From assembly GCA_030549495.1 (NCBI GenBank), contig JAUIRK010000142.1, positions 880,001 through 944,000 on the forward strand: a DNA stretch of 64,000 bases. Reading direction: 5' to 3'. Below are positions 40,377 through 59,904 of this stretch, piece by piece. Below the pieces are notes generated by a model. The model was not told where the DNA came from. It saw nothing but the letters and a program-made list of their open reading frames with translations, and searched no databases. This DNA is from Nectonema munidae (taxonomy: Eukaryota; Nematomorpha; Nectonematoida; Nectonematidae). The stretch's first letter is position 1; the number at the start of each line of letters is the position of its first letter. The position numbers were made by a program, and so were the translations under genes.

Positions 40377-40660
40377 CAGAGCCCGCGCTACCTATTAAAT
40401 TTTGGGGCACAAGCCCCCCCCCCCCCCGTAACTATTTCTCAAGCTACCCTAAAAATATCTTCATTACCCTAAAAAAAATATGACAAACATCTAGCAATCA
40501 TGATAATTTTTTCATGAATATGTAATCTGTATAGATATGGCTTGACAAACACAACATATGTTTTCTTTTCGCCTTGAAGCAGATTAATCTGATAGTTCAA
40601 AAATCATCGCCCCAATCAAGCCCCCCCCCCCTCAAAAATTTTTTCTTAGCGCGGGCACTG
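40377..40660. mobile_element. hAT-like MITE, copy A
   Basis: Terminal inverted repeats CAGAGCCCGCGCTA and, on the minus strand, CAGTGCCCGCGCTA. ATGCACA flanks both sides, offset by two or three bases on the left, consistent with an eroded 8-bp target duplication. Long C runs lie just inside both ends (14 C near 40417; 12 C at about 40620-40631). Non-coding. Confidence 0.6.
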
Positions 40661-41407
40661 ATGCACATAAATGTATTAGCTTTAAATGAAATATGGAAAC
40701 CTAAATTAAAGTTTGAAAAGAGGGGTTTAATTTTGTCTGTCATAAACGGTTATAACGTAGATTTAATCCTGATGAGGACAATAGTCATTTTACTTTACCC
40801 TCAGATCAGCCAAAAGGCGTCAATCTTTTGAATTTTTCACTGAGTTGTTCATTTTATTTTGATAATATCACAGGGAATGAAATATTAGTAATAGTTAATT
40901 ATTTGAACTTAATTATATTGTATAATAGTTAATTTGCCTCACTTCAACTCGTTCTAAAATGACTCCTAAACCCGACTCCTTCATTTATATACAAAAAAAT
41001 TCACTAAGCAGATTTGTCTAGGATTGAGGAAAAGTTTTTCCATACAGTTTAAGATAAAATTCTTATAAAGTGTATTTATTATAGAATAAAAGAGTGTTTA
41101 TAATAAAATGAAATAGACCAACTTTTAAAAAATAAAATGAAATGACCAAGTTTTTCAAATGATCTGCTTTTTTGACCGATAAGTATTAATTCTTCATATT
41201 TCTCGAAATTCAAACATCTCTTTTTTAGTGTTTATGATATTCGAATCAAAACTAATAGATCTTTCCGTCTGAGAATTGCTGAACGGTATCATCAAGTTAA
41301 AATATATTTTTAAAGAAGCGAAATATATAGGTTTGTATTATATACTTTTTGTTTCAAAATAAAAATTCTTTTTGTATTTTATTTTTGATCATTGATTTAT
41401 ACTACAC

Positions 41408-41470
41408 ACACTGGGCCCCGCGCAATCTATCTTGCATAGGGCCCGCGAAAACTAGGGCCGACCCTGAATG
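41408..41470. repeat. hAT-like terminus (copy A; also 56922-56982)
   Basis: Ends in CTAGGGCCGACCCTG; the reverse complement CAGGGTCGGCCCTAG is a classic hAT terminal repeat. The opposite terminus was not found. CAGAGCCGGTGCTAGGAATT at 43329 is a terminus of a related element. Confidence 0.4.
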
Positions 41471-42250
41471 GAACAACCTACATTTTATCTCGATTTTAAA
41501 TTAAAATATCTTCTCGTTAGTAATATTAGATGAGCCAATCTGCATGTAAACAATAAACTTCCATTTTCATTATTTTTTTAGGATCTCTACAACTTTAAAA
41601 AGTTATAATATAAAATTTATTAAAAAGAAAATATTGAAAGAGTTAAAAAAAAATGCGTGTATTTTAACAAGCCTAATGTGTACTGTATAACTAATAAAAA
41701 AAGTAAAATTGATTCCTCAAAAACAGGGTTCAGTTTTTTTGCGGGGGAATGAGGATTAACTCTCCCCTCGGTGAATGGGCAGGTTTGGAGTCCCCTCAGA
41801 GCTCGGATAAAGATATATGTGAATAAAGAGTGGTATCTCGGTTTTCGAAAAAACTCGTTTTAACAAAGTGTTCGAAAGCCGATTTAGTATATTACGAAAA
41901 TTGGTAATGTTGTACTATCCGTGCATCGATGAAAAGCAATTTTAATTGTAAAGAAGTTGTTCAATGATATAATGCTCTCATATGTCAATCTTTTCTTGAA
42001 TGCGATTAAAGTTTGAGTATCGCACTATACGTGCATTGTAGCAAATACAGTCTATGCCTGCCTCCATAATACGGGTATATCTACATGATACACATATAGT
42101 GCGATGTAACGTGTCTTATAATGTTGTAATGAAGAGGGTGATGTGTTAAAAAAGAGTGATGCGCACATAAAGAGCAACACAGTCTGTGTTTCTCTCTCTC
42201 TTCACTACTATACACATACACACACATACAAATTGAAGACCAGTATTATG

Positions 42251-44356
42251 GACCGTAGACGGATAATCTCTGAAGTCGGAAAATCTCTGAAGTAAGTTCT
42301 TTGTGCATAAGTCGCTTTCTCTCTCTCACTAGCTGGCCTATCTCCCCTTGTGTTACAATTTCTCTGTCACTTTTCTCACTCCCCAAAGTGTAATCTACGC
42401 CAATATCACAAGGCCAGGAAACAATTTTTAAAAGAGATGAGGAAGTTTAAAGCTTCATAGCTCAGAGTGAATCTTCACTCACTAAAGTGTAACCGTTCTT
42501 ATGAAGAAAAAATAGACTTTAACCAGGGGTGTGCAAACTTTATCAACGGCGAGTACAATTCTAAAAAATATATGAGTATCTGGGCCATTTACTCAAAGTA
42601 AGTACATCTTGATTCTCCTGGTTTAAGAGTAACATAAATTAATTATTTGAAAAACATTAAAAAATCATTATTATTATTATTGAAAAGATACACAATCCAA
42701 AGATTAATATAAAACAGATGAAGAATAACGACCACAAGACAATATTTTAGTAGCAAGTGAAGAACAACCACCCCGCATGACCCTTTTGAAGAACCACCAC
42801 CCCAAATAGTTTTCCAATAATATTGTACAGAATATACCACTGAAGCAAAATTAAAAAAATTTATTTAATAAAAACTAAAATATTAAAATTTTGATTTAGT
42901 AAAGGCAAAATAAAATCTTGAAAATTCATTTTGTGAGAAGAATTAAAAAAATAAACAATAAGTATACATCTATAATATTATATAGCTGACTTGCAAAACA
43001 GGATATTGTTTCAAGATTATAAAGTGTTATAAGATTAAATATATACTAGTGAAATCAGTATCAGTGTAATCCGATTAAAAACACCTTGTTTAGTATACGC
43101 TCGATTTAATTATACAATACACATTTCAAAGTTTAAATAAATATAAAACTCAACTGAAGAATAGCCACCCTAAAATCTCTCTTCTGAAGAATAGCCACCC
43201 CAAAATTGTTGGGTTGGTTGTTCTTCATATGATCCCAAAACAGTTAAAACATTAAGGTAAACAGTCCACAAAAAAACAGAAATGTCCACTTACTCGGGAG
43301 CAATTAAAAAAATGGTCATCAATATCAGAGCCGGTGCTAGGAATTGCGGGGCGCAATTATAATTCTGATAGAGGGGTCCCGACTTTACATAGTAAAATTT
43401 ATCGTTGTTTATATTTAATATAAAAAAAAGGAAAAAAGACATCAAAAAATTTTTAAGCCACTATGGATACTTTTATTGCTTTACTTTTAACATTAACCCG
43501 TTAACACCCAATGCCGACTATAGTCGACTTTACAAAACTAAAATCGTCTGCGTTTATCAAAGCTCTTTAATACAAATCTTCGGCTTTACATTAGATATCG
43601 TCTGATTATTCTGGTCGTCAACGGGGAGGGGCAAACTAGGCAATTACATATATTCCTTTAGAAAAAGATTCTTCTAGCTTTTATATTAGCAATATCTTTT
43701 AAAATATTTTTCGAGATATAATTCTAAAATGTAGTTTATTAATTTTTAAAAACCTCTTTCAAAAAACTTCTAAAGTAATAAAAACTAAATTTTAGAACAT
43801 GAATTTATAGATTTTGGTTGGCTGTCTGTAAATATTAATATTTTCATGTGATTTTGAAATTTTAGAGAAAAAATTTCTTTTTTGAAATTTGAAGCTGTAG
43901 AAAACTTAAATGTATACACTTAAAGGATAAACTTATAGTAAAAATGGAGAATTTTCTTATCGCAGCACTAATGCAATAAGTAAGGAGGGCGAGAATGATT
44001 GTGGGAAAATCCACACATGTGAAAATAATAGTACTGACTTATGTGCTAATAAAATGCCCGAGTTAGTATTACCAAATAGTAATGATGGATGATATACCAT
44101 GTGTGGCTCAGTTAATTCAAATAAAACATTGAATTTCCTCATCTCTTTATAAATTGTTTCCCAGCGTAAGTGATATTGGCGTAGATGTCACACTTTGGTG
44201 AGTAAGAAAAGTGAAAGAGAAAATGTAACACAGAGGAAGATAGGCCAGCTAGAGAGAAGGAGGAGCGCCTTATGCACAAAGCGTGAAAAATTATTACTTC
44301 ACAGGTTTTCCATGGAACTTCAGTGATTTTCCGACTTCAGAGACTTTCCTAGAACC
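42251..44356. mobile_element. long inverted-repeat foldback element, copy A
   Basis: The left arm 42251-42455 and right arm 44131-44356 are diverged inverted copies of each other. Shared blocks are CTCTGAAGTCGGAAAATC, TTTGTGCATAAG.CGCT, CTAGCTGGCCTATCT, ACACTTT(G)G/C..AAAGTGT with GATATTGGCGTAGAT, and GAAACAATTT.T.AAAGAGATGAGGAA. The 1.7-kb centre is AT-rich and includes a piggyBac-like MITE. No transposase is encoded, so it is a non-autonomous foldback or MITE-like element with arms of over 200 bp. Confidence 0.75.
43493..43626. repeat. piggyBac-like MITE remnant, copy A
   Basis: Begins TTAACCCGTTAACACCCAATG and ends ATTCTGGTCGTCAACGGGG. The inner ATCGTCTG motifs and inverted ends match the MITE at 14910-15046. 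The right TTAA is lost. Confidence 0.5.
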
Positions 44357-44397
44357 CATATGATGGTTAAAATAAAGAGATTATAGCTTTTTAATAA

Positions 44398-44880
44398 AGT
44401 GAAGGGAGATAAGCAAGCAGTCTTGAAATTGCTTTCCAAGTAATCGAAGTGTTATAAAAGGAGACGTAGCGAAAGAGAGAGAAAGTATGCATATGGCAAT
44501 ATTTTAATATATGTTTTGCTCTCATCCATACTCTTTCTCTTTGTGCGTGAGGAAAAGATAGGCAAGCAATGTTAGTTTTGCTTAAACAAGAGAGATAGCG
44601 TGTATACAAGCAATCTGTTTTGCTTCATTTATACTCTCTCACTGTGTGATGCAAGACAAGCAATATTAGTTGTGCTTTCATAGCAAGAAAGATAGAGTAT
44701 GTGAAAGCAATGTATCTTTAGCTTTCATGAATATTCTGCTGCATGATGCAAGGCAAGCAATATTATTTACGCTTTCACTTATTCAATACAAAATATATGT
44801 GAAGATGAAAAATAAACAAATGATAGTTTTTCCTAGAAAAGTATACGAAGATAGGCAAGCAGTTTTAGCTTTCTAAGTAA
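44398..44880. repeat. degenerate minisatellite (AGGCAAGCAATATTAG units), copy A
   Basis: Six or so imperfect units of about 70-90 nt, each with (A/G)(G/A)CAAGCA(A/G)T.TTAG.TTTGCTTTC and an AGAGAGATAG-like part. The GATAGGC..GC motif resembles GATAGGCCAGCTAGAGAGAA in the right arm of the neighbouring foldback element, so the array may derive from it. The right end passes into a short (GA)n at 44903-44932. Confidence 0.6.
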
Positions 44881-45169
44881 CGTATTAGAAAAAGAGATAT
44901 ATAGAAAGAGAGATTGAGAGAGAGAGAGGAAAAAAAATTTATTGATATGAAAAAGTTCAAAAGAATCATAATTAAATAAAATGAGTGCATGTATACTCAT
45001 AATATGAACATTCAGATATTGTACAAGATCATCGTTATGGGATAAATCAATAGCCAAAATGGCCGTTACTCAGATTTTCCCGATTAGTTATTGGTAGATA
45101 ATAACAATTTCGTAACAAACAGGTAAGCTTAAAGTTTCACATGCTAAAAATTTGAATTTAGATTATGAA

Positions 45170-47408
45170 CTAGTTTAAACGCGAACTTAAAAGATGATAT
45201 TTTATTATCTTTTTGAATGTAAGCAAAGATATAGATATATGATCGAAAAGTTGTAAATTTTCAATATAAAACTCATTTACTTTTTTTACTAGTGAGATAT
45301 CTGAACTTTTAAGTCTGTATGAAACTTTCAGGGGTTTATTGGAGTTCCTAATGATATATTTCGGATTTTCATTATATCTTATCATTTGCCCAAACACATT
45401 TTGTAAATGACCGTTGAAGTACTTATAGAGGAATACACCGATCCTTTGTTTGAAAATCTCTTCAATGCACAGAATATTATTTTGAATAAAGATTTCCGAT
45501 GTGTGCTCATTCTTTTTCAAATTAAAAATCACTCTGATAGCCCTTTTTTGAAGAATTTGTAATCGTTTTTTACCTTTTGGATACCAGTTTATAATGCTAT
45601 AGTTTATATAAGAAATGAACAATTGTTTATAAAGCATAAGTTTAATATTCAAAGGAAAAATATTTTTAGTAAAGTATAGTATACCAATCACTCGATTCAG
45701 GTCGTGAGCTAATTTATCTATATGATGCCTAAATTGCATTTTATTATCAAATTGTAACCCAAGTATTTTCATACTACTTACTTCAGGAATTCCAGTAGAC
45801 TCCAAAAAATTATATTTTCTCTTTTTATTTGAGATTATCATGCATTTAGATTTGTTTTTACTCAAAATTAAATTATTCTCAGAGCACCAACTGTAAAGTT
45901 TATCTAGACTGTTGTTCAAACATATTGTATCGATAAATTGACCATATTTTATTTTAGACATTGGAAAGTATACGCAAATGTCGTCTGCAAATATCAGAAA
46001 TTCAAAAAATGTATCAAGGAAGAAAATGCTGTTGATAGCGACATTAAAAAGTATTGGCCCCAAAATCGAACCTTGTGGGACACCATTTCCTATTGATAAT
46101 TTTCCAGAAAATGCATCATTAACTTTAACAATTTGGTGTCTATTTGTGAGATATGAGTTCAGAAAAAGTAAAGCGTTTTCACTAAAACCACATTGATTCA
46201 AATTTTTTAAAACTGTCGAGTGATTAACTCTATCAAAAGCCTTTGACAGGTCAAATAGAAAAATACTGCATCATCCTTCTGTTCTAGAATATTGACTACT
46301 TTATAAATCAAACATGAATGAAAAGACTCAGTGGAGTAATTTTGGCGAAATCCAAATTGATGGTCATTCAAGTAATTTATTGAGTTCAAATAAGCTTTTA
46401 GCTGAAAATGAATGAACTCTTCAAATATTTTAGAAACTGCAGGAATAATTGAAATTGGTCTGTAATTATCAATACAGTTCCTATCATTTTTCTTATGCAC
46501 TGGAACAACTTTATGTAGTTTAAGGATTTCAGGAAAGATGCAACTTGATTGACAGCTTCACACAAAACAATACAAATGTCAGATTTTATTAACTTCAAAT
46601 GATTTATGCAAATCCCATATATATCTTTCGCTTCATTCATTTTCATTTTGTCAATAACGGATAATAGAATTTCATTAGAACACAGTTCGAATTCAAAAAA
46701 ATTCATTGTATTGTCAAGAAAATTAAAGTTTTTCCGATTTGGCAACGAATCATTTTGAATACAAGCAAAGCTTTCGTTGAAAATGTTTGCAAGGCTAAAG
46801 TCATCATAATACTGATTATCTCTTTTAATTAATATTTTGTTATTTTTCTTTCCTTTTAGGATCATGTTAATACTTGATCAAGTTTTCTGAGTAGTATCAC
46901 TGTTGTGAAAAACCGTTGAGTAATACTTTTGCTTCAACTCCCTTATCTTATACTTTATACGATTTCTTAATAAAGTATACTTTTTTTTAATGTTCAAATC
47001 AGTACTCTTTTTGCATTTTCGACGCAATTTATCTCGTAATTTTATCATTTGTATGACTTCATCAGTGATCCAGGAACTAAATTTTTCCTTGTATTTGTTG
47101 GTACTAAACTTAACAAATGAAGTACACTCATTGACCATGTAAGAAATTTGAGAAATCATTTGCTCAAAAATTCTTGAAGGGTTATTTGGGTACAACTCAA
47201 TAATTGAAACCCAATCTATTTCACTAGACAATGAAGAGAATAAGTTCCGGTTGAATTTTTCTCTTAACTTTTCTTTTATTTTATTAACTTTAAAATTGAG
47301 AGATAAAAGTATCGGTATATGATCGGAAAAGAAGGACATACAATTGAATGATTTATAGTCAACATTATTTTCATTTAAAAAAGTTATTTTTTGCGTATAT
47401 AGAAGCAA
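45170..47408 (-). pseudogene. LINE ORF2 (endonuclease end + reverse transcriptase), copy A
   Basis: Frames in order: 47408-46878 has FFSDHIP, the C-terminal SDH box of an APE endonuclease, and a W-x-T-x-x-(V/I) linker. 46865-46398 continues the linker. 46500-46207 has NYRPISIIPAVSKIFEEF and FGFRQNYSTE. 46201-45170 has GVPQGSILGPILFN, FADDICVY and LGLQFD. Frameshifts occur at about 46530 and 46262. Both are shared with copy B, so the element was already dead before the duplication. Confidence 0.88.
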
Positions 47409-48201
47409 TTAAAAATGTATATATGCAACATGTGTATTGCTGTTTACTTCATTTTTGTTTTTGCATGCCCTTTGTGTAGAAGCACGCTTCGCCACTGATT
47501 TATTGCTATATATACTCTTTACAATATCGTACTTAAACTTAATGCCAATATTACAAAACTTGGTATTTTTTTGTTCTAATCTTAAAAATTTTAAGCAAAG
47601 AATCAAGAGGAATATTATTTTGCTCACTAATTGTAGTCTTTAAGTATTCTAACTCTAAATTAGCATCAAATCCTTTTAAATTTTTCTTTTAAATCTTTCA
47701 TGCAGACTTTGTTGAATTTATTGTGCATATCCAACGATGAGGATTCTACAATAAGAGATGAGTCTTTGGTGGACTTTATCTTATTAAAACAAAATTTATT
47801 AGCACTTGGTTGTAAAACTTTTTCAACGTGAGATATACTACTACCACTTTTTTTATGTCTGAAAAAAATCAGGTATGCGCAGAGATAAATCAGGCTTAAA
47901 TATTTCAACTTGACTAGATTTTGTATTAACTTTAGCTGCGTAAGATACATTCTTATCGTTTAACTTCGGATAGGTCAAAAAATTTTTGTGATTCTTTATA
48001 CATTTTTCAATTGAATCAGTTTTTTCACTGACGGTCTTAAGATTCGTTAAAATTTCATGACAACTTTGTTTTGAATTATTAAAATTATTGATCTTTTCTT
48101 CAATAGTATTCAACTTGGATTCAATAATTTTAATAATGTCAAAATGTTTATTTTTTTTCCATCAGAAAAAGCAGTCTTACATACGTCTTCCTTTGAAATT
48201 T
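47409..48201 (-). pseudogene. LINE ORF1 remnant, copy A
   Basis: Frames 48113-47853, 47950-47666 and 47627-47409 are consecutive pieces of one Lys-rich ORF1-like protein with a coiled-coil start (IEEKINNFNNSK) and a later KY.IVKSIYSNK block. At least two frameshifts. Assignment as ORF1 is from position and character rather than a specific motif. Confidence 0.5.
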
Positions 48202-48212
48202 TTTTTTTTTTT

Positions 48213-48445
48213 GCAGTCCTCCTTTAGCGGAGCTGCTTGTTTTATTCAATTTTATTGAAACAAGGGACAAGGGGAGAAAACAACAAAATATTGACACAAC
48301 AAAATAATGGCACAAGTTTTATGAGCGAGGAATCCTCTGCTGTGCCGTCAAGAATCTTGAGGTAGTTGTGTGAGCCATGCTGGAATCCAGGAGGTCTTCG
48401 TTGTTTGTTGTCTTCCTTGTCCGCTTTGCAGCTCCGCTAAGGACT
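48213..48445 (-). ncRNA. structured 3' tail of the GC-rich element
   Basis: In the transcript, AGTCCTTAGCGGAGCTGC (complement of 48445-48428) can pair with GCAGCTCCGCTAAAGGAGGA and CT (complement of about 48236-48215), interrupted by a 3-nt bulge. This closes a loop of about 190 nt immediately before the poly(A) tract. It could serve as an RT recognition or replication signal. The structure is inferred from complementarity only. Confidence 0.55.
48241..48256 (-). terminator. tandem AATAAA poly(A) signals of the GC-rich element
   Basis: Minus-strand AATAAA at 48256-48251 and 48246-48241. The second lies about 28 nt before the poly(A) tract, a normal cleavage distance. Confidence 0.75.
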
Positions 48446-48496
48446 GGAAATGACCAAAAACTTTGGCTTTCGTAGCATCAAGGGAGTGGTGGGTGG

Positions 48497-48734
48497 GAAG
48501 TAGAGTGAGTGAGAGCAAAAAGAAAGTGAAGTGGGCCTGTGCGCGGCTGCTTATATACCAAGGGGAGCAGCGGAAGCCCGGGCTGGCTTGCTATTGGACG
48601 GGCAGTTAGCAGCTCCTCCTGTTAACAAGGGGGCGTAGCCCGTCCTTTTGCCAAGCTTTATTGACCAATGAGAAGAATCTTCTGCTGTCGTCTTGGCGCC
48701 AAATGGGCAGTCGATAGGGTCTATCTTCATGGCA
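48497..48734 (-). promoter_or_regulatory. 3' copy of the direct repeat, downstream of ORF2
   Basis: Starts 9 bp after the ORF2 stop. Its TATATAAG is at 48557-48550. If active it would drive a short RNA of about 300 nt covering only the structured tail to the poly(A) site. Confidence 0.7.
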
Positions 48735-48742
48735 TTGTAGGT

Positions 48743-51301
48743 TCATTGCACAGGCCACTTAGGAGAGAACTTCTTCATCCTAGCTTCAGTGATCCACTTG
48801 AAGGTGAGGAGGATGTTGCTGAAGAAGTCTCTCCAAACTTTGGAATCCAAAGAGATCTGGGAATCCCAGATGTCGAGCGTGTGTTCTTTCGCGGAAGATT
48901 GGCGTCGGGACGGCTCGTCCGCCGGATTATCTTCCGATTTGACGTACTCGATGGAGGAGCGCAAAGCATCTTTCCAGTTACTGGAGGCCTCTAACCATAG
49001 AAGCAGGATGCCTTGGCGCCAGGAGCTGCTGCCAAGTTTGCGTATGCATCCGATTGCAGCCATAGAGTTCGAAAGGATCTTTCGGGATGGCCAGGTGAAG
49101 TGGGCTAAGATGATGGCGAGGAGCTCCAAGTCCGTTATGTTCCATTCCGGGGCCCGGATAGGAAAGCACCAGGAGCCTTCTTCGGTGTAGAGTCCCAAGG
49201 CCGCTAGGGACGCATCTACATAGACAACGCCATCAAGCTGTCTGGATTTTGCCAGACTCCAGGGGACAAGGATGGTATCCATCACATACGGGAAGGCCAA
49301 CTGAACCAGTTGACCATAGGAGGCGAGATCTTCCCAATGATATAGGTTGGAGATCATCCTGAACTTTCCAGGGAGCGTGGCTGCGTAGTAGTTCAGGATT
49401 CCCATGATCTTCTGCCTCCATTTGAGTGGTACCTCCGGGCAATTTTGTGCCAACAAAAAGGCGCACAGTGCCCGGAGGAGGGCCTCTTTCTTGGTATCCG
49501 GGATACCCATCGTCCTGGTGCCAAGATCGAGGCGGGCCCCGAGGAACTCGAGGGCCTGGGTGGGTTGGAGGATGGACTTTTCAGAGTTTATGCGGATCCC
49601 GCATTCCTCTTCCAAGAAAAGGGTGAATTGTCTGGTGATCCAGCCCGATAGATCCCGGGAATCCGCCAGGATAAGGAAATCGTCCAGGTACACGATGATC
49701 TTGACCGTTAGCGCGCACTGGGGGGGCAAACGTGCCTTGAAAGTGCCTACTAGCCGGCGCATCGTGTTCTGGAGGATGGCTGGGCTGAAACAGGCTCCCA
49801 TCGGGAGCCTGGTGAATTGCCAGACTCGGCCGCCTAATTTGACGCAGAAGCAGTTTCGCCAGGCTGCTTGGATACGGATCCCGTAAAAGGCGTCAGATAG
49901 GTCTAGCCTAGTAGCCCAACTTAGGTTCTCCGGTATATACCTAAGCTGGAAGGGTGCCGTTAGGCGTATGGGGGGCGTGGCAAAAAGCTCCTTAGTGAAG
50001 CCGAAATCCGCGACTAGACGCGTCTTCCCGTTAGCCTTGGGTACCAAGAAGCATGGGGAGATGATTCTGGGCTTCCTAGCCAATTCCAAAATGCCATGTT
50101 CCACGAGTTTGGGCAGGACCTGCTGGGCCAGGAAGGCCCTCTGGCTCGCGGGTGGCTTCGAGAACCTCGAAAAGGAGTGGAAAGGCTTGTTGGAGAGGAG
50201 CTTAGGCCTGTAACCTCGTTTGAGGATGTTGAGGATGCCTGCGTGCTTTAGATCTGACGGGGGCCTGAAAAGGGGGGCCGAGACCCGGAACGAGGCGTTG
50301 GCCGGCAACTCCGACATTCTTGCCGATGCCGAGTAGGACCTGAGGAGGTTCCGGCAGGAGGCTATGTCGATGATCGACTGTATCTGGTCCTCGTCCGGAT
50401 CCGGGCATGGGTTGTCCTCCGGGTCGAAGGACATGACCTGTGAAAAAATGTTCTTACAGAATCTGGGAGGGAACAAGGTCTTGTGGGCGTTATAGAAGTC
50501 TAGAAAAGCACCGGGGTGGGCGGGGATAAAAAAACTTTGGTCCCCGACCCGGACCGAGATGGACCCGTCTGACTGAAACGTAAAAGATGGTGCCTCAGCT
50601 GGGTCGATGGGGGCTGGTAAGAGAATGTTGAGGGGCGGCAGCGTTGGTGTCTGAGGCGAGTCTCCCTTTACCAGCACCGGTATTCCATCGACAATCTTTA
50701 TCCTCGTCTGGATCAGTCCGGGCGGATGGGTCGCCACGGGCTGGGGGGAGGACGAGGGGGCTGGGGGCGGTTCCCGAGTAATGGAGGGCTGTCCGTTGGA
50801 GATCGTGATAAAAGACTGAACCAGTCTTGTAGGTGCTGGGGCACGAGGGGGGATCTCCGGAACAGGTACGGGTAAGCCGACGGGAACCCCCAGTTCTTGG
50901 AGAAAACCACCTTCAGGGACCCTGAAGGATGGGACGTCTGTGGGATCGGATAGCAAACTATCGAGGGGCAGGGGCTCTGGTGAAGGAGGTTCTGGGCTGG
51001 GCGGGATAAAAGGCTCATAGCCGTGCGGGTGCCCCGCAGGAGTGACAGGAGGAATCCTACTGTCAGGAGGGAGCCTTCCCGTGATTAGTGGCGGTGGGGA
51101 TGCCAAGGCGCGGTGCAGCCTTGGTGGCTCCTCGGGGCCATACCCATGGGGGAAGTGAACTGACCGCCTCCCAGGCGCCCAGGCCTCCGCGGGGAGACCC
51201 GAACCGGGTGGTGGGGGCATAGCCTCTGCCACTGGAGGAGGCGAGACTAGCCTTCTGTGCCTGGAACCCAGGGGGGGGGGACGTCGCACTGGGCGGACCA
51301 T
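48743..51301 (-). CDS. retroelement ORF2, reverse transcriptase-RNase H
   Basis: 852 codons. Residues 1-300 are Pro-rich and low complexity. The RT runs about 390-620: NGKTRLVADFG, ATRLDLSDAFYGIRI, FTRLPMGACFSPAI and the catalytic YLDD at 538-541, then INSEKSILQPTQALEFLG. RNase H runs about 690-815: YVDAS (Asp696), DLELLAI (Glu726), LSNSMAA (Asn745 where Asp is expected) and DNPADEPSR. The RT-RH type is closest in feel to DIRS-like elements. There is no integrase or recombinase downstream: the stop is 9 bp before the second repeat. A G10 run at 51271-51280 lies close to the start; a one-base change there would join ORF2 to the overlapping open frame reaching up to 51632, so the true N-terminus is uncertain. 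Confidence 0.85.
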   Translation of the reverse strand: MVRPVRRPPPLGSRHRRLVSPPPVAEAMPPPPGSGLPAEAWAPGRRSVHFPHGYGPEEPPRLHRALASPPPLITGRLPPDSRIPPVTPAGHPHGYEPFIPPSPEPPSPEPLPLDSLLSDPTDVPSFRVPEGGFLQELGVPVGLPVPVPEIPPRAPAPTRLVQSFITISNGQPSITREPPPAPSSSPQPVATHPPGLIQTRIKIVDGIPVLVKGDSPQTPTLPPLNILLPAPIDPAEAPSFTFQSDGSISVRVGDQSFFIPAHPGAFLDFYNAHKTLFPPRFCKNIFSQVMSFDPEDNPCPDPDEDQIQSIIDIASCRNLLRSYSASARMSELPANASFRVSAPLFRPPSDLKHAGILNILKRGYRPKLLSNKPFHSFSRFSKPPASQRAFLAQQVLPKLVEHGILELARKPRIISPCFLVPKANGKTRLVADFGFTKELFATPPIRLTAPFQLRYIPENLSWATRLDLSDAFYGIRIQAAWRNCFCVKLGGRVWQFTRLPMGACFSPAILQNTMRRLVGTFKARLPPQCALTVKIIVYLDDFLILADSRDLSGWITRQFTLFLEEECGIRINSEKSILQPTQALEFLGARLDLGTRTMGIPDTKKEALLRALCAFLLAQNCPEVPLKWRQKIMGILNYYAATLPGKFRMISNLYHWEDLASYGQLVQLAFPYVMDTILVPWSLAKSRQLDGVVYVDASLAALGLYTEEGSWCFPIRAPEWNITDLELLAIILAHFTWPSRKILSNSMAAIGCIRKLGSSSWRQGILLLWLEASSNWKDALRSSIEYVKSEDNPADEPSRRQSSAKEHTLDIWDSQISLDSKVWRDFFSNILLTFKWITEARMKKFSPKWPVQ

Positions 51302-51459
51302 ATCCCACCGGGAAACCGGAATCCGGTCGTCCTAGCCGCCAATCTGGCGGCAGAGAGGACATAGGGGAGTCTGGATCAGACTGAGGCGAGGACGAAGGGG
51401 AGGGCTGTGGACCACAGCAGAACAGAGAGGTAAGACGATACCTCCTGTTATTGGACCCT

Positions 51460-52266
51460 TTACTTCTTGCGGGCCAATGTTGTGGAGGGGCGAAAACGGC
51501 CCCTACCCCGGGTAGCTGGAGCATCTCGTGAGCTAGCCGGAGCCCTAGGGAAATCCATACCGGTAATCCCGGCGATGGAGAGAAGCGAGGGCGCTTGGTG
51601 ATGGACATTGGTCCAGGTCGAATGGGCCGCAATTACGTGCGTTCGGAGCATTCCGTTGATTTCTGAGAGATCCTCAGAAGACAGAAGGGGGAAAAAGGGA
51701 CGAAGCTTTTCCAAGTAACAGATCATTACTTCGTCCTTTATATTCATGTCACGGGATTTGATCAATTCTAAGATGACTCGGACCCGACGGTCGGCAAGGA
51801 CGTCTGGAGGGGTAGCGTAAATGCTAGAGTCGATGTGATCGGCCGTAGCATAGCCAGCTGGCAGAGCACCGGGAAGAAGGCCGGGCACATAACCCAAAGG
51901 TTTGGGTACACCCTGGACCGACGGGAAGGTCGGAGCCGAGGGGAGCAAGGGGGTGGACACCGTAGTGGGGATAGCACTTACGGAGAGAGAAACATGAGTG
52001 TTAGCCGAAGAAGGTGTCGCAGGAGAGGATAAAGCGGTAGCTGAGGATGAGGCTGGTGTGCTGGTAGACGAGGCTATCCCCGGAGTCACGGAGCGAGCGG
52101 GCGCTAGTTGCCCCTCCAAAGCCGTGAACCGGGTTTCCATCCTTCGCAGCTGCGAAGTAATGGTGGATAAAGCGGTACTAAAATCAGTGAGGTTGACGGA
52201 ACAAGATAGTAGAGGTGTGTCGGTGATGCGGGTAGATTGTTGAGAGGACGCGGGGGTCTTGGACAT
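51460..52266 (-). CDS. retroelement ORF1, gag-like
   Basis: 268 codons from the second Met at 52266. The first ATG at 52299 lies inside the terminal repeat, about where transcription should begin, so the later start is preferred. The N-terminus is polar with a predicted coiled coil (TALSTITSQLRRMETRFTAL), the middle is a long Ser/Thr/Pro/Ala linker, then a helical segment (about 160-225). The end is basic (RGRGRFRP...ARKK), suitable for RNA binding. No CCHC knuckle. This is typical of gag-like proteins of DIRS and related elements, but similarity is by character only. Confidence 0.6.
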   Translation of the reverse strand: MSKTPASSQQSTRITDTPLLSCSVNLTDFSTALSTITSQLRRMETRFTALEGQLAPARSVTPGIASSTSTPASSSATALSSPATPSSANTHVSLSVSAIPTTVSTPLLPSAPTFPSVQGVPKPLGYVPGLLPGALPAGYATADHIDSSIYATPPDVLADRRVRVILELIKSRDMNIKDEVMICYLEKLRPFFPLLSSEDLSEINGMLRTHVIAAHSTWTNVHHQAPSLLSIAGITGMDFPRAPASSRDAPATRGRGRFRPSTTLARKK

Positions 52267-52277
52267 AGTTTCAGTAT

Positions 52278-52515
52278 GAAGTAGAGTGAGTGAGAGCAAA
52301 AAGAAAGTGAAGTGGGCCTGTGCGCGGCTGCTTATATACCAAGGGGAGCAGCGGAAGCCCGGGCTGGCTTGCTATTGGACGGGCAGTTAGCAGCTCCTCC
52401 TGTTAACAAGGGGGCGTAGCCCGTCCTTTTGCCAAGCTTTATTGACCAATGAGAAGAATCTTCTGCTGTCGTCTTGGCGCCAAATGGGCAGTCGATAGGG
52501 TCTATCTCCATGGCA
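52278..52515 (-). promoter_or_regulatory. 5' terminal direct repeat with CCAAT and TATA motifs
   Basis: Identical over 238 bp to 48497-48734 except one base seen (52508 versus 48727). On the minus strand it has ATTGG/CCAAT boxes (52445-52450 region and 52374-52378), TATATAAG (52338-52331) and a pyrimidine-rich CTTTCTTTTTGCTCTCACTC stretch where transcription would start about 30 nt downstream. The architecture is that of a compact RNA polymerase II promoter. ORF1 begins 12 bp after the repeat ends. Confidence 0.75.
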
Positions 52516-53758
52516 ACTCCAATAAGACTTTTCCTTTTTTTAAGATTTTTGTTGTTAATATGAAAAAATAATATTTGTTTTCTAAATTCAAATCAGCTAT
52601 TTTGAATAAAAAGTTCTAAATAGGTAAAATAACACAAAGTTATACAATAATGTTTACTTTTCAAAAAGAGAACTTCAAAATTGTATGAAATAAAAAAAAA
52701 TGAAAAGATTTTTTATAACCCAATTCATGCATAACCATAAGTCAAAATATAGAATAATCTCCATAATGTCTTGTTTCGTCAAATTATTTGCCAAAATTTT
52801 GTTTGTATGTAAGGGGTGGGTATATATGATCTTTTTTATTCAATATTTCATCTTTCAGTTTTTCTTTTTTTTTTAATATTGTGATGCTGTTAATAAGTCT
52901 TCAAATATTATTAAAGTTAAATTTTATGATTCTAAAGGGGTTCTTCCATTTAAAAATTTATCTTATGATGCCTTATCCTAAATCATAATTTCTCTTATAT
53001 AAACTCACATAATTTTTTTTCAGACCTATCCCCTTAGATAGAGCTAAAAATATTTTGATGATAAAGTTTGTAATTGTTTTTATTGATAAGAACAAATCTT
53101 ATCTTTATTCCAAAATGATAATAAAAATCTTTTTTTGCTTGAAAGGGAACCGGTTCTTATGGTCGTAGACAAAATAAAAATCGTAGTAATGATATGAATA
53201 AAAATATCATTATAAGTTCCATCTTGTATTAAATTGAACATGTAAAAAATCAATGGAAAAGTGCAAAACATTTAAATTCATAATATTTTTGGGTTTTATT
53301 CTTTAAGCAATTAACTTTATTTTGTTAATAAAACACACTTCTTGTAAGAATATCACTACTATGATATGTAAATACTTTTCTAGGAACCGTAAGTTTGACT
53401 AATGTTCTGCATTATACAAATGTTCTAATTCTACTCTTAAAAAATATAATAACTACAACTATAATGCTTTTGATGTTAATTGCCCTGTTAAGAATAGTAA
53501 TTATGATTTTATTAAAAAAAACACTGATAACTCTCTTTCTAGTCCCTCTATTATAAATAAATATGTTCGACTTCACCTTTTTTTAAAGATGTAGATACAA
53601 TATCTTGTCCTAACGTTAATTTTGAATTTATACAGTTCAACGCCTGATAGATAGACTTAATTATTCACAAAGTTTGCTACATACAATCATAGTATATCTC
53701 ATTTAAACTGTCGAAGATATATAATTTCTAATTCATGAAATAGAATCCATGCACAATT

Positions 53759-54034
53759 CAGAGCCCGCGCTACCTATTAAATTTTGGGGCACAAGCCCCC
53801 CCCGTAACTATTTCTCAAGCTACCCTAAAAATATCTTCATTACCCTAAAAAAATATGACAAACATCTAGCAATCATGATAATTTTTTCATGAATATGTAA
53901 TCTGTATAGATATGGCTTGACAAACACAACATATGTTTTCTTTTCGCCTTGAAGCAGATTAATCTGATAGTTCAAAAATTATCGCCCCAATCAAGCCCCC
54001 CCCCCTCAAAAATTTTTTCTTAGCGCGGGCACTG
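53759..54034. mobile_element. hAT-like MITE, copy B
   Basis: Same element as 40377-40660, with shorter C runs. Confidence 0.6.
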
Positions 54035-54470
54035 ATGCACATAAATGTATTAGCTTTAAATGAAATATGGAAACCTAAATTAAAGTTTGAAAAGAGGGGT
54101 TTAATTTTGTCTGTCATAAACGGTTATAACGTAGATTTAATCCTGATGAGGACAATAGTCATTTTACTTTACCCTCAGATCAGCCAAAAGGCGTCAATCT
54201 TTTGAATTTTTCACTGAGTTGTTCATTTTATTTTGATAATATCACAGGGAATGAAATATTAGTAATAGTTAATTATTTAAACTTAATTATATTGTATAAT
54301 AGTTAATTTGCCTCACTTCAACTCGTTCTAAAATGACTCCTAAACCCGACTCCTTCATTTATATACAAAAAAATTCACTAAGCAGATTTGTCTAGGATTG
54401 AGGAAAAGTTTTTCCATACAGTTTAAGATAAAATTCTTATAAAGTGTATTTATTATAGAATAAAAGAGTG

Positions 54471-54483
54471 TTTATAATAAAAT
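54471..54483 (+). repeat. target site duplication, left (TTTATAATAAAAT)
   Basis: Identical to 56610-56622 and single in copy A at 41097-41109, which preserves the empty site. Confidence 0.92.
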
Positions 54484-56609
54484 CTATTATATTTAATATA
54501 ATAAGCATTCTGACAATAAACTGATTGTTTCCAAGTCTCAGAAACCACCTTGGATCAATAGTGAGTTTATCAGGGTTCGAAACAAAAGAAGGGTCGCTTT
54601 CAAAGTTTGGATTAAAAATCAGACATCTGGAAATAGAAAGCTTTATCATGACTTAAGAAAAAAAACTAGTTTAATACTGGAAAAGAACATTTCCAGTTAT
54701 TGTGATGAATTTATAAATAACTCGTCTGACTCAAAAAAACTCTATAGTTTTTTTAGAGTTTTAATGGGTAAGTCTCAGATAAGTAAAGTTAGTTACTCTG
54801 CTGTGGACAAAAAAAACTTTGCGAAAAATTTCAATTTATTTTTCTTAAATAAAGTTGAAATGATTGTGAAGGATTTATGTTCAAACAAGTCACAAGACTT
54901 TTCGGATGTTTTAAGAACCGAAGCCCGTTCTTCTTCTTTCACAAATTTTGAGTTGACAAACCTGCTTGAGGTTGAAGACATACTGAAAACTCACGGCACA
55001 AAACTGGGGCCAGCCGACACCCTTAATACCGAGCTATTCAAACACTGTTCCTACATTTTGCTACCTCTTTATGTTACTTACATCAATATGTCAATTAAAT
55101 CATGTTCTTTTCATGGCATGAAACAAGGCTACATCATTCCACTCCCTAAGATTGAGAACGCTACTTTTGAAGATATGAAAAATTACAGACCAATTTCTAA
55201 CCTATCTCTTCTGAGTAAATTGATGGAACGAGTTGTCCTGAAGCAACTTCAAGTCTATTGCCTTGAAAACAGTTTGCTTGATGAACAACAGTATGCTTAC
55301 AAAAAACATTGTAGCACAGAGAGCCTTGTTCAAAGTCTAGTCGACACCATCAGCGAATCATTCCACCGAAAACAACTCATAGTGCTTCTCACACTTGACA
55401 TCAGTTCAGCGTTTGACACTGTAGATCGAGAACTCTTGCTTGGGATACTCTTCAGACAGTTTGGAATTAAAGGCAACGCTTTCAATTGGCTACAATCTTA
55501 TTTAAAAGATAGAGAACAATGTACAATCATCGATGGATTTCGCTCTTCATTCAAATCTACTAGATTTGGTGTCCCTCAGGGATCTGTTCTGGGACCATTT
55601 CTGTTCAGCATGTACATTTCTCCCATTCTGAAATATATCAATACAACTGGATTTAGTTCTTTCGCCTATGCTGATGATATTTTCATAATTAAAGAGTTTG
55701 ACTCAAAGTTCCAATACTCCACGCTTAATGTCATGATACCTCAGCTCTTGAAAAATCTTTCCTCACTATTTGCAAACTTCAATTTGAAACTGAATGATAG
55801 CAAAACAAAGGCAATGATATTTTCTTCACCTTCAACTCATCAAAGAATATTTCCTTCATATATACCTCTCTGCAATAATGTTTACTTGCCTGTTCTCGAC
55901 AAAGTAGATGTTCTTGGTGTTTGTATGGATAGAAACTTATGCTTTGATCAGGAGATTGCCAATATTTTGAAAAGTGGTTATAGTTTTATAAGAAGCTTTT
56001 CTAAAATAAAAAAGTACTTGTCGCAAACAAACATGAAAATTTTAATCAACTCCTTCGTAATATCCAAGCTTGATTATTGTAATTCTATTCTCTATGGAAG
56101 ATACGAATACCAGATCAACAAACTTCAGATTCTTCAAAATACATGCGCAAGAATGATTCTCAAAATTCCTAAACGACAGAGTATAACTCCTGGTTTGAAA
56201 AAGCTCCATTGGTTGAATATTAAAAAAAGAATTGTTTTCAAAAATGCGATCCAGACATACAAATGCTTGAAATTTAAAACTCCCTATCATTTAGCGAAGA
56301 AAATAAAAGTTAATGAGAGGATGCGTCTTTGTATACCTCCACGAAGTCATGGTATGATTGTGAAGACTGCTGAAAGAATTTGGAATTCATTACCTATGTT
56401 CTTAAGAAACGAAGACTTCGTATCTTTTAAAAAAGACTTGAAAACGTTTCTTTTCACTCGTGATGAGAGATTTTGATATTTATCCTTGATCAAATTCATT
56501 ATGTTATGCTGTTAGTGTATTTGAGCATACTTTTGTATATAGCGAGACTGTACAGTCTAAATCAATTTTTAGCAGTAGTTTCGCTCTAAATAAACTTTTC
56601 ATTCATTCA
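54484..56609 (+). mobile_element. 5'-truncated CR1/L2-like LINE insertion in copy B
   Basis: Flanked by a 13-bp target duplication and ending in TTTT(CATT)n, a microsatellite tail instead of poly(A), as in CR1/L2-clade elements. The 5' end is truncated within ORF2, upstream of the RT, so it could not move again. The empty site in copy A dates it after the copies separated. Confidence 0.92.
54500..56476 (+). CDS. LINE ORF2 fragment, intact reverse transcriptase
   Basis: The open frame runs from the truncated 5' end through an internal Met at 54764 (570 codons from there) to TGA 56474-56476. A linker with PPWINSEF and R..A....(K/R) is followed by RT motifs NYRPISNLSLLSKLMERVV, LTLDISSAFDTVD, FGVPQGSVLGPFLF, FAYADDIF and a C-terminal LGVCMDRNL region. 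The catalytic ADD is intact and no frameshift is present, so the insertion is recent. The endonuclease is missing through truncation. Confidence 0.9.
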   Translation, partial: NKHSDNKLIVSKSQKPPWINSEFIRVRNKRRVAFKVWIKNQTSGNRKLYHDLRKKTSLILEKNISSYCDEFINNSSDSKKLYSFFRVLMGKSQISKVSYSAVDKKNFAKNFNLFFLNKVEMIVKDLCSNKSQDFSDVLRTEARSSSFTNFELTNLLEVEDILKTHGTKLGPADTLNTELFKHCSYILLPLYVTYINMSIKSCSFHGMKQGYIIPLPKIENATFEDMKNYRPISNLSLLSKLMERVVLKQLQVYCLENSLLDEQQYAYKKHCSTESLVQSLVDTISESFHRKQLIVLLTLDISSAFDTVDRELLLGILFRQFGIKGNAFNWLQSYLKDREQCTIIDGFRSSFKSTRFGVPQGSVLGPFLFSMYISPILKYINTTGFSSFAYADDIFIIKEFDSKFQYSTLNVMIPQLLKNLSSLFANFNLKLNDSKTKAMIFSSPSTHQRIFPSYIPLCNNVYLPVLDKVDVLGVCMDRNLCFDQEIANILKSGYSFIRSFSKIKKYLSQTNMKILINSFVISKLDYCNSILYGRYEYQINKLQILQNTCARMILKIPKRQSITPGLKKLHWLNIKKRIVFKNAIQTYKCLKFKTPYHLAKKIKVNERMRLCIPPRSHGMIVKTAERIWNSLPMFLRNEDFVSFKKDLKTFLFTRDERF

Positions 56610-56622
56610 TTTATAATAAAAT
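56610..56622 (+). repeat. target site duplication, right
   Basis: Partner of 54471-54483. Confidence 0.92.
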
Positions 56623-57764
56623 GAAATAGACCAACTTTTAAAAAATAAAATGAAATGACCAAGTTTTTCAAATGATCTGCTTTTTTGACCGATAAGTATT
56701 AATTCTTCATATTTCTCGAAATTCAAACATCTCTTTTTTAGTGTTTATGATATTCGAATCAAAACTAATAGATCTTTCCGTCTGAGAATTGCTGAACGGT
56801 ATCATCAAGTTAAAATATATTTTTAAAGAAGCGAAATATATAGGTTTGTATTATATACTTTTTGTTTCAAAATAAAAATTCTTTTTGTATTTTATTTTTG
56901 ATCATTGATTTATACTACACACACTGGGCCCCGCGCAATCTATCTTGCATAGGGCCCGCGAAAACTAGGGCCGACCCTGAATGGAACAACCTACATTTTA
57001 TCTCGATTTTAAATTAAAATATCTTCTCGTTAGTAATATTAGATGAGCCAATCTGCATGTAAACAATAAACTTCCATTTTCATTATTTTTTTAGGATCTC
57101 TACAACTTTAAAAAGTTATAATATAAAATTTATTAAAAAGAAAATATTGAAAGAGTTAAAAAAAAAATGCGTGTATTTTAACAAGCCTAATGTGTACTGT
57201 ATAACTAATAAAAAAAGTAAAATTGATTCCTCAAGAACAGGGTTCAGTTTTTTTGCGGGGGAATGAGGATTAACTCTCCCCTCGGTGAATGGGCAGGTTT
57301 GGAGTCCCCTCAGAGCTCGGATAAAGATATATGTGAATAAAGAGTGGTATCTCGGTTTTCGAAATAACTCGTTTTAACAAAGTGTTCGAAAGCCGATTTA
57401 GTATATTACGAAAATTGGTAATGTTGTACTATCCGTGCATCGATGAAAAGCAATTTTAATTGTAAAGAAGTTGTTCAATGATAAAATGCTCTCATATGTC
57501 AATCTTTTCTTGAATGCGATTAAAGTTTGAGTATCGCACTATACGTGCATTGTAGCAAATACAGTCTATGCCTGCCTCCATAATACGGGTATATCTACAT
57601 GATACACATATAGTGCGATGTAACGTGTCTTATAATGTTGTAATGAAGAGGGTGATGTGTTAAAAAAGAGTGATGCGCACATAAAGAGCAACACAGTCTG
57701 TGTTTCTCTCTCTCTTCACTACTATACACATACACACACATACAAATTGAAGACCAGTATTATG

Positions 57765-59863
57765 GACCGTAGACGGATAATCTCTGAAGTCGGAAAATCT
57801 CTGAAGTAAGTTCTTTGTGCATAAGTCGCTTTCTCTCTCTCACTAGCTGGCCTATCTCCCCTTGTGTTACAATTTCTCTGTCACTTTTCTCACTCCCCAA
57901 AGTGTAATCTACGCCAATATCACAAGGCCAGGAAACAATTTTTAAAAGAGATGAGGAAGTTTAAAGCTTCATAGCTCAGAGTGAATCTTCACTCACTAAA
58001 GTGTAACCGTTCTTATGAATAAAAAATAGACTTTAACCAGGGGTGTGCAAACTTTATCAACGGCGAGTACAATTCTAAAAAATATATGAGTATCTGGGCC
58101 ATTTACTCAAAGTAAGTACATCTTGATTCTCCTGGTTTAAGAGTAACATAAATTAATTATTTGAAAAACATTAAAAAATCATTATTATTATTATTGAAAA
58201 GATACACAATCCAAAGATTAATATAAAACAGATGAAGAATAACGACCACAAGACAATATTTTAGTAGCAAGTGAAGAACAACCACCCCGCATGACCCTTT
58301 TGAAGAACCACCACCCCAAATAGTTTTCCAATAATATTGTACAGAATATACCACTGAAGCAAAATTAAAAAAATTTATTTAATAAAAACTAAAATATTAA
58401 AATTTTGATTTAGTAAAGGCAAAATAAAATCTTGAAAATTCATTTTGCGAGAAGAATTAAAAAAATAAACAATAAGTATACATCTATAATATTATATAGC
58501 TGACTTGCAAAACAGGATATTGTTTCAAGATTATAAAGTGTTATAAGATTAAATATATACTAGTGAAATCAGTATCAGTGTAATCCGATTAAAAACACCT
58601 TGTTTAGTATACGCTCGATTTAATTATACAATACACATTTCAAAGTTTAAATAAATATAAAATTCAACTGAAGAATAGACACCCTAAAATCTCTCTTCTG
58701 AAGAATAGCCACCGCAGAATTGTTGGGTTGGTTGTTCTTCATATGATCCCAAAAACAGTTAAAACATTAAGGTAAACAGTCCACAAAAAAACAGAAATGT
58801 CCACTTACTCGGGAGCAATTAAAAAAATGGTCATCAATATCAGAGCCGGTGCTAGGAATTGCGGGGCGCAATTATAATTCTGATAGAGGGGTCCCGACTT
58901 TACATAGTAAAATTTATCGTTGTTTATATTTAATATAAAAAAACAGGAAAAAAGACATCAAAAAATTTTTAAGCCACTATGGATACTTTTATTGCTTTAC
59001 TTTTAACATTAACCCGTTAACACCCAATGCCGACTATAGTCGACTTTACAAAACTAAAATCGTCTGCGTTTATCAAAGCTCTTTAATACAAATCTTCGGC
59101 TTTACATTAGATATCGTCTGATTATTCTGGTCGTCAACGGGGAGGGGCAAACTAGGCAATTACATATACTCCTTTAGAAAAAGATTCTTCTAGCTTTTAT
59201 ATTAGCAATATCTTTTAAAATATTTTTCGAGATATAATTCTAAAATGTAGTTTATTAAACCTCTTTCAAAAAACTTCTAAAGTAATAAAAACTAAATTTT
59301 AGAACATGAATTTATAGATTTTGGTTGGCTGTCTGTAAATATTAATATTTTCATGTGATTTTGAAATTTTAGAGAAAAAATTTCTTTTTTGAAATTTGAA
59401 GCTGTAGAAAACTTAAATGTATACACTTAAAGGATAAACTTATAGTAAAAATGGAGAATTTTCTTATCGCAGCACTAATGCAATAAGTAAGGAGGGCGAG
59501 AATGATTGTGGGAAAATCCACACATGTGAAAATAATAGTACTGACTTATGTGCTAATAAAATGCCCGAGTTAGTATTACCAAATAGTAATGATGGATGAT
59601 ATACCATGTGTGGCTCAGTTAATTCAAATAAAACATTGAATTTCCTCATCTCTTTATAAATTGTTTCCCAGCGTAAGTGATATTGGCGTAGATGTCACAC
59701 TTTGGTGAGTAAGAAAAGTGAAAGAGAAAATGTAACACAGAGGAAGATAGGCCAGCTAGAGAGAAGGAGGAGCGCCTTATGCACAAAGCGTGAAAAATTA
59801 TTACTTCACAGATTTTCCATGGAACTTCAGTGATTTTCCGACTTCAGAGACTTTCCTAGAACC
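57765..59863. mobile_element. long inverted-repeat foldback element, copy B
   Basis: Duplicate of 42251-44356; arms 57765-57969 and 59638-59863. Confidence 0.75.
59009..59142. repeat. piggyBac-like MITE remnant, copy B
   Basis: Duplicate of 43493-43626. Confidence 0.5.
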
Positions 59864-59904
59864 CATATGATGGTTAAAATAAAGAGATTATAGCTTTTTA
59901 ATAA

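Follow-up and report, generated by a model that had tools for sequence, protein, structure and literature searches.

Analysis of a 64,000-nt stretch of the Nectonema munidae genome (GCA_030549495.1, contig JAUIRK010000142.1, positions 880,001 to 944,000 of the forward strand; hereafter the window) identified a retrotransposon of ~4.31 kb on the minus strand (48202..52515; 5' end 52515, 3' poly(A) 48202) that, as judged from its sequence, lacks defining features of both long terminal repeat (LTR) and tyrosine-recombinase (YR) elements. It is probably best read as an endonuclease-free retrotransposon primed at DNA breaks. The sequences of the copies directly document the layout, 3' ends in poly(A), copies that begin where the RNA is predicted to start, others truncated on the 5' side, and concatemers with shared repeats. 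Also the near-identity of the two repeats within copies, the lack of short target-site duplications (TSDs) at the tested sites and a 9-kb duplication present in the assembly were observed. Below, C-numbers are contig labels (the window lies in C121), L-numbers are stretches read, and E is the element lineage.

Along the minus strand, from 52515 to 48202, the order is repeat, open reading frame (ORF) 1, ORF2 with reverse transcriptase (RT) and RNase H, repeat, tail and poly(A). The repeats are both 238 nt long, one at the 5' end (52278..52515, the promoter copy) and one internal near the 3' end (48497..48734), each with the order U3-R. They differ by one mismatch in BLAST (237/238; the repeat search gives 100%), and the 99.6% match is far above chance. 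Both carry the TATA box TATATAA, at 52332..52338 in the 5' repeat and at 48551-48557 in the 3' repeat. The predicted RNA start lies at about 52308, ~30 nt past the former, and R, the segment of the repeat with which the RNA would begin, is placed at 52278..52310 (32 nt) on the basis of the junctions of other copies. The U3 border of the repeat has the sequence TGCCATGG. ORF1 is at 51460..52266 (268 aa; first ATG 52266, stop 51460) and ORF2 at 48743..51301 (852 aa), its stop being 8 nt from the second repeat. The unique tail (48212..48496, 285 nt) starts with CCCACCCACCACTCCC, includes AATAAA signals and ends with GGACTGC; it has a complementary pair of arms that could close it, the 5' arm at 48428..48446 and the 3' arm, adjoining the poly(A), at 48212..48235. 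The poly(A) end covers 48202..48211, or 48198-48211 if Ts common to the target are counted; the A-run is given as 11-14 because three Ts also belong to the target. All these features are on the minus strand, and all the parts listed in an earlier note on this DNA (two ORFs, YLDD, a 238-bp repeat with promoter motifs, a 285-nt tail and poly(A)) were present. Two corrections to that reading concern the window copy, namely its ORF offset and an RNase H Asn; the note had also overlooked the duplication junction.

ORF2 is composed of a proline-rich N-terminal part, an RT with YLDD and an RNase H-like C-terminal part. Pfam domain scans, which took in three copies (window, C658 and L048), matched the window ORF2 to RVT_1 (E 3.4e-14). 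The RNase-H-type match was weak (DNA_pol_viral_C, E 2.9e-4, under its cut-off), being under the cut-off also in L048 and just above it in C658. RVT_1 and DNA_pol_viral_C were the sole domains matched in the three copies, and towards a pararetrovirus-like element (virion or envelope genes, episomal life) the DNA_pol_viral_C match is all that was observed. No DDE integrase, GIY-YIG, other endonuclease or tyrosine recombinase was found in these three copies, which agrees with the lack of an integration enzyme claimed in the earlier note. The tyrosine recombinase profile PF00589, which detects YR elements imperfectly, had 0 matches in the whole genome, and divergent recombinases could escape it. 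ORF1 had no Pfam match and is called gag-like by position only; its C-terminal end is basic (RGRGRF..RKK). The window copy may itself be dead, because the ORF1/ORF2 offset has changed and a conserved RNase H Asp is replaced by Asn. The offset differs from that of seven copies read (C658, C246, C743, C681, C579, C596 and C162), the change being near a G-run at about 51271, and Asp is present in 9/9 other copies readable at the position.

The search of the host assembly (211.6 Mb, 748 contigs) with ORF2 gave at least 61 matches, fragments included, and the protein of a relative gave 79 matches, some at the same places as those of ORF2. Twenty stretches with copies were read, and then two more. 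Among 11 ORF2 sequences (55 pairs; C579 only partial) dN/dS was 0.07-0.16 and dS up to 1.58 in all but one pair, the near-identical copies C246 and C693 (dN/dS 0.72 at dS 0.007). These values indicate purifying selection on ORF2 across families, and the lineage is old, diverse and selected within the N. munidae genome because dS reaches 1.58 at low dN/dS. The G+C content of the element is 55.5% vs 30.8% in the first 48 kb of the window, a difference from which the earlier note had suggested a recent arrival from another genome. Two host ORFs of the window, however, reach 43.5 and 46.8%. Such a recent foreign origin was rejected as unsupported, given the dS of up to 1.58 between families within the genome and the less GC-rich relatives, one with a G+C of 44.3%. 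In 26 mapped joins of ORF2 and repeat, the repeat follows directly or within 27 nt by alignment, and there is therefore no room for a third ORF between them. Neither an integrase or recombinase ORF nor a described family with this layout was met in what was read.

The depth of the layout is reflected by L048 (C325), which is 31% identical to ORF2 over 550 aligned residues and 21% identical to ORF1 in the same frame (E 2e-6). It has a single ORF of 1,085 aa and a perfect repeat of 82 nt, carrying TATATAAGCAGC, at the 5' end and across the ORF end. The sequence CCCACCCAC is found directly after R in both the L048 and the window families, the repeat-tail border of the element family reading CTCTAC/CCCACCCAC. 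The L048 family shares the layout of the window element, and because this family is deeply diverged, that state is old rather than the result of a recent loss.

The RT-RNase H is apparently of the LTR/DIRS kind. A phmmer search with the whole ORF2 against 5.8 billion proteins found no match at 1e-3. The RT-RNase H region had seven matches at E<=1, P0001 being the best, and the alignment had eight at E<=0.1, with identities of at most 28%; the protein search scores only the ~8,000 candidates sharing most words. The IMG/VR scans with ORF2, the alignment and P0010 gave nothing. In the RT tree of 18 rows, the E sequences grouped as a single clade (100/100) with a long stem. This clade fell outside the branch of three Gypsy proteins (100/100) and was separate from P0001, P0009 and P0011 (99/99), which were labelled DIRS-type. 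A weak fork (72/82) joined E with P0014, likewise labelled DIRS-type, and with P0003-type proteins, among which is one of the coral Oculina patagonica; the tree program warns that the long branch of P0014 may be drawn to E. The label rests on a sub-threshold Dam match in P0001 and on our own reading, and the rows of the tree were without a named DIRS/Ngaro reference, long interspersed nuclear element (LINE) RT or Penelope RT, P0008 being left out. As to whether the RT falls within a known family, the tree places the lineage outside Gypsy and the three DIRS-type proteins, and its sister only weakly.

A genome-wide search for the pattern GGACTGC+A10 found 10 sites, every one of them a tail end, against 0 for the reversed control. 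Their A-runs are 11-17 nt, the pattern itself demanding at least 10; AATAAA is present shortly upstream, and the flanks beyond differ between the sites. Among the 19 3' regions examined, six had a canonical poly(A), and the other four of the ten ends were those of the window, C39, C449 and a tail piece at C268. The copies at C39 and C449 combine 5' truncation with poly(A). In nine aligned tails (of 14 distinct found, the rest mostly near-copies) the start CAGTCC..AGCTGC and the end GCAGCTCC..GGACTG are almost invariant and complementary while the middle diverges; the tail end of C126 is cut short. A stem closing the tail is plausible from this complementarity, with hardly any covariation: of the 26 predicted pairs, only 2 have both partners altered in any of the tails. 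The internal A-tract of the tail comprises roughly 25-40 As in the C743 copies (L017, L018), vs about six in the C268 copies.

Of the 14 5' regions examined, six start at R, 28-41 nt after the TATA place of the repeat of the same family. Five of these starts are at 28-36 nt, and C579b, whose reference repeat has no intact TATA, at 41 nt. The reference was the copy's own 3' repeat for C743a, C743c, C681 and C596, and that of a neighbouring copy of the same family for C268b and C579b. The remaining 5' regions were truncated in ORF1 (C658, C268a, C268c and C162), had a full or partial repeat (C579a and C66b) or belonged to arrays with shared repeats (C693 and C246). In the six copies starting at R the 5' end lacks a promoter, and because they start 28-41 nt past the TATA place, the repeat would be a promoter carried whole in the RNA only near its 3' end. 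An RNA starting at R would therefore have no U3 at its 5' end. A ribozyme-made 5' end was rejected, as no ribozyme match was found in the element; nothing in the window reached the Rfam gathering score, and the single snoRNA match within the element (E 4.6) was at chance level.

Where the copy's own 3' repeat was the reference (four copies), R matches exactly for 23-32 nt, C743a showing a 2-nt difference in repeat length; with a neighbour's repeat as the reference (two copies), the exact match is 18 and 34 nt long. Between families R is 61-91% alike, and between near-identical copies 94-100%; C693 had no anchor for R in this comparison. In a unit of C126 the two repeats are identical at 212 of 213 positions. 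The two repeats of one copy evolve together, because they are near-identical within copies and R differs between most families. We infer that switching from R to R between RNAs accounts for the U3 at the 5' end and also for the concatemers with shared repeats.

Several junctions join one copy to the next. Both C579b and C681 start with R, at most ~4 nt away from the poly(A) of the upstream copy; C268b likewise starts with R, behind an A-rich end where the sequence is poor. At C638 a 5'-truncated end of ORF2 is followed by one repeat and the ORF1 of the next unit. C693 and C246 consist of 3.8-kb units with one shared repeat, and C126 of 4.3-kb units with two repeats and the tail. In L019, at about 5450-5850 (C268:29.4-29.85 kb), there are C and A homopolymers resembling a poor consensus of the element tail, and L020 (C268:36.9-38.5 kb) includes a long degenerate tandem array with a unit of ~30 bp (CACAGGCAGGCACAAACAGGGAGCACTTAAA-like) adjoining element copies.

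In a self-comparison of the window, the joint of a tandem duplication coincided exactly with the element. The left copy of the 9.07-kb flank (A1, 39135..48201, plus strand) ends exactly at the poly(A), and the right copy (A2, 52511..63709, plus strand) starts exactly at the 5' end of the element. The two copies differ by 22 substitutions (0.24%) and at most 12 gap events over the ~9.06 kb compared, without the first eight positions at the junction. A2 alone includes a non-LTR insertion of 2,126 bp (54484..56609, plus strand), which ends in CATTCATTCA and not in poly(A), and has a 13-bp target duplication (54471-54483 / 56610-56622); it appears to be young and inserted later than the duplication. 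A paralogue 235 kb away (85% identity) crosses the left outer border of the duplication unbroken, and no such paralogue spans the right outer border. Because the paralogue runs straight across it, the left border is taken as ancestral and the join between the element and A2 as new. The flanks may be described as a 9.07-kb 'target duplication' or, equally, as a tandem duplication jointed by the element. For L1 in tumours, tandem duplications formed by bridging of sister chromatids are described (PMC7058536).

At five other insertion sites with both sides available, no shared k-mer beyond the expectation from shuffled flanks was detected, so that none of the five showed a TSD above chance. These were five of the ten poly(A) ends, those of C743, C268 (two) and C579 belonging to arrays or rearranged clusters that offer no clean 5' partner; for C681 the 5' side was that of its upstream tail fragment. 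C658 has inserted into an ORF of the L048 family, with a blunt join or, judged against a related target ORF, a loss of at most about 3 nt. Because no TSD above chance was found at the five sites, in contrast to the 13-bp TSD of the LINE insertion in the window, this small sample favours priming at existing breaks over a LINE-type pair of nicks. LINE target-primed integration, one of the origins suggested in the earlier note, is in its strict sense not supported by these sites.

The favoured sequence of events would be as follows. A Pol II start ~30 nt past the TATA box of the repeat would give an RNA with the order R-ORF1-ORF2-U3-R-tail-poly(A), in which the sole complete promoter would be near the 3' end. 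Copying of this RNA by the RT would begin at the poly(A), the most likely primer being the free 3' end of a broken chromosome, and the cDNA end would be joined to any available end, resulting in an insertion without a short target duplication. Joining 9 kb back on the sister or homologous chromatid would produce a large tandem duplication like that of the window. When the nascent cDNA reached the R at the RNA 5' end, it could switch to the R of a second RNA and copy U3, by which the promoter would be regenerated. If synthesis then continued, head-to-tail concatemers with one shared repeat would arise; if it stopped soon, a copy like that in the window. Priming at breaks, the use of the element's own RT rather than another's, the template switch and the joining to a sister chromatid are what we infer here. 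Whether the lineage should also be regarded as a separate retrotransposon order, with an RT-RNase H of the LTR/DIRS type, no nuclease of its own, breaks as primers and partners, and R-to-R switching for the 5' promoter, is more doubtful, and we put this forward as a tentative possibility.

Several observations weigh against this sequence of events. For R to stay alike within copies, the switch would have to take place at the inner border of R, or another homogenising step would be needed. The 5' repeat starts at nearly the same place (within ~4 nt) in the window and in the C126 array, although the repeats of the two are 84.5% alike, and this counts against the proposal because random truncation after the switch does not predict equal starts. 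In C126, the tail joins the repeat without poly(A) at 6/6 junctions read, and because of this the array suggests a DNA-level step, either a circle or unequal exchange. Furthermore, 13 of the 19 3' regions are truncated in the tail, the repeat or earlier, are in arrays or are rearranged; tail-to-tail fold-backs are present at C743a and C268a, and many copies are rearranged. Apart from that of the window, only five sites entered the TSD sample, and at one of these, C39, microhomology could conceal a TSD of 6 nt. The RNA start and the poly(A) are read from DNA, and the predicted RNA ends fold no clearly better than shuffled sequences (z 0.23, -1.15 and -1.58). The AlphaFold2 models were of no help, as both ORF1 (helical, low-confidence, mean pLDDT 46.7) and ORF2 (mean pLDDT 32.4) were modelled too poorly for a structure search.

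The poly(A) copies could instead be processed copies inserted by the resident LINE machinery, the element's own route being another one or lost. LINE-made processed copies resemble them in their poly(A), in being truncated on the 5' side and in starting where the RNA begins, and LINE-like RT ORFs are plentiful in the window. We nevertheless consider this fairly unlikely, as 0/5 tested sites had a short TSD, and the one LINE of the window readable at both ends has a 13-bp TSD and ends in CATTCATTCA instead of poly(A). Moreover, the selection on ORF2 across families would imply that a self-made route is hidden, and concatemers with shared repeats are untypical of processed copies. The duplication, on the other hand, could be a misjoin of two haplotypes head to tail, with the element as an ordinary poly(A) insertion ending A1. 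The 22 substitutions and at most 12 gap events in ~9.06 kb could be allelic, and A2 holds an insertion missing from A1. Yet both borders of the duplication fall exactly on the element ends, and a false join would need sequence common to the element 5' end and the start of A, of which only a few nt exist; a misjoin therefore appears unlikely.

The earlier note had also suggested a DIRS/Ngaro derivative, and such an element, having lost its YR and the B1 repeat, could spread as recombining circles or amplified arrays with the poly(A) copies as a by-product. This would fit the LTR/DIRS kind of the RT, the best match P0001 (read as DIRS-type from the sub-threshold Dam match), the arrays, whose units hold one repeat or two, as circles of either kind would give, and the C126 junction of tail and repeat without poly(A). 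The suggestion keeps some ground also from P0014 beside E in the tree, subject to the long-branch warning. It loses ground as there is no B1 copy and there are 0 matches to PF00589 in the genome, E is apart from the branch of P0001, P0009 and P0011 (99/99), that is, from three of the four DIRS-type proteins, and the same layout in a deeply diverged family points to an old state; we regard such a derivation as improbable. A retrovirus-like LTR element that has lost its integrase, with its cDNA passively captured at breaks, would explain the LTR-like U3-R logic and the identity of the repeats within copies. In such an element the 3' repeat would be expected to be terminal, but here it is followed by the 285-nt tail and poly(A), the RT is outside the Gypsy branch (100/100, three rows) and the 31%-identical relative has the same layout, all of which make this reading highly improbable.

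A description of the lineage was not found in the open-access literature searched, Repbase being outside that search. The earlier note had stated that the layout fully matches none of the known orders, and this agrees with the comparisons, in which the element differed from LTR, DIRS/Ngaro, Penelope and LINE elements each in some feature. The RTs of LINE-type and Penelope elements are in most forms without RNase H, and those of TART, TAHRE and HeT-A are also without it. According to PMC5537684, HeT-A and TAHRE have a promoter in the 3' untranslated region and TART has perfect non-terminal repeats, with oligo(A) ends and head-to-tail arrays. The present element likewise has a promoter in its 3' repeat, non-terminal direct repeats, oligo(A) and head-to-tail arrays, but these three are telomeric non-LTR elements with a LINE-type RT, whereas its RT-RNase H is of the LTR/DIRS kind and no endonuclease was found. 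A telomere-specific element was also rejected, since large contigs hold copies far from their ends, that of C596, for instance, at 1.2 of 2.26 Mb. As several others lie in short contigs, some bias may nevertheless exist. TTAGGG repeats are present in the genome. In C559 the arrays among the matches listed are at about 3.6, 14.7-14.9, 25.9-26.4 and 28.1 kb, which suggests telomere-like arrays broken by other sequence.

According to PMC11167929, tandem or partial-tandem copies of Penelope-like elements give flanking promoter repeats (pLTRs), there is a 'tail', and in the canonical forms, which use a GIY-YIG endonuclease, reverse transcription begins at an internal site of the RNA instead of the poly(A). 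A pLTR-type arrangement from partial tandem copies is seen also in the element family, which, unlike Penelope-like elements with their telomerase-type RT, has no GIY-YIG match but an RNase H-like domain after the RT and a poly(A) end. Because the RT type and the nuclease differ, the element is not a member of either the TART/HeT-A or the Penelope group. Ngaro, DIRS and VIPER elements have gag and RT-RNase H, no protease or DDE integrase and, in the Ngaro type, some internal direct repeats (PMC3783388, PMC6681497). The element similarly has a gag-like ORF, RT-RNase H, an internal direct repeat and no DDE integrase found, but differs from Ngaro and DIRS in that no tyrosine recombinase was found, B1 is lacking and the end is poly(A). 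DIRS/Ngaro elements are marked by inverted terminal repeats with an internal circle junction or by the order A-pol-B-A-B; of the latter, the repeat search detected the repeat copies A1 and A2 but no B1, and it gave no terminal inverted repeat.

With LTR retrotransposons (Gypsy, Copia, BEL and Troyka; PMC12440569) the element shares the fused RT-RNase H and, presumably, the U3-R redundancy of the RNA. It differs in that no integrase was found, the 3' repeat is non-terminal, no 3-6 bp TSD was present at the tested sites and the poly(A) is inserted. The poly(A) 3' end with variable 5' truncation is LINE-like, although 13/19 3' regions end otherwise, and no APE (apurinic/apyrimidinic) or REL (restriction-like) endonuclease was matched in the three copies; the assignment of the RT as non-LINE rests on the RT-RNase H layout. 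In the L1 duplications of tumours, too, the element marks the joint, its cDNA with poly(A) having been linked to an end some distance away (PMC7058536). There, the event is an aberration of an endonuclease-bearing element; here, it would be a regular route without endonuclease.

These results bear on the old question of the origin of LTRs and of how an element keeps a promoter that its RNA leaves behind. HeT-A was reportedly proposed as a model for that question in a 1997 paper in Cell. In N. munidae, many families in one genome combine LTR-type enzymes with LINE-type poly(A) ends, and their junctions record the steps and make the mechanism testable, a 9-kb tandem duplication being tied to one insertion. 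The age of the lineage suggests that retrotransposition can last long without an integration enzyme. Were the lineage indeed a separate order of the kind put forward above, it would represent a living intermediate between the LINE-like and the LTR-like mode of replication, and insertion would mend breaks while making tandem duplications.

Helicase-like ORFs are located directly beside element copies in L014 (8491-9840, minus strand) and in L048 (about 800-1160), the tail of L048 entering the ORF shortly past AATAAA. We take both to be Pif1/Helitron-like; Helitrons carry Pif1-like helicases. Elsewhere in the window, a VPS53 ORF (28907-31495, minus strand; 862 aa) and an ORF of a TGS-domain GTPase (34879-35979, minus strand; 366 aa), presumably DRG-like by our own judgement, have G+C contents of 43.5 and 46.8%, respectively, and are long single frames inside an otherwise AT-rich region.

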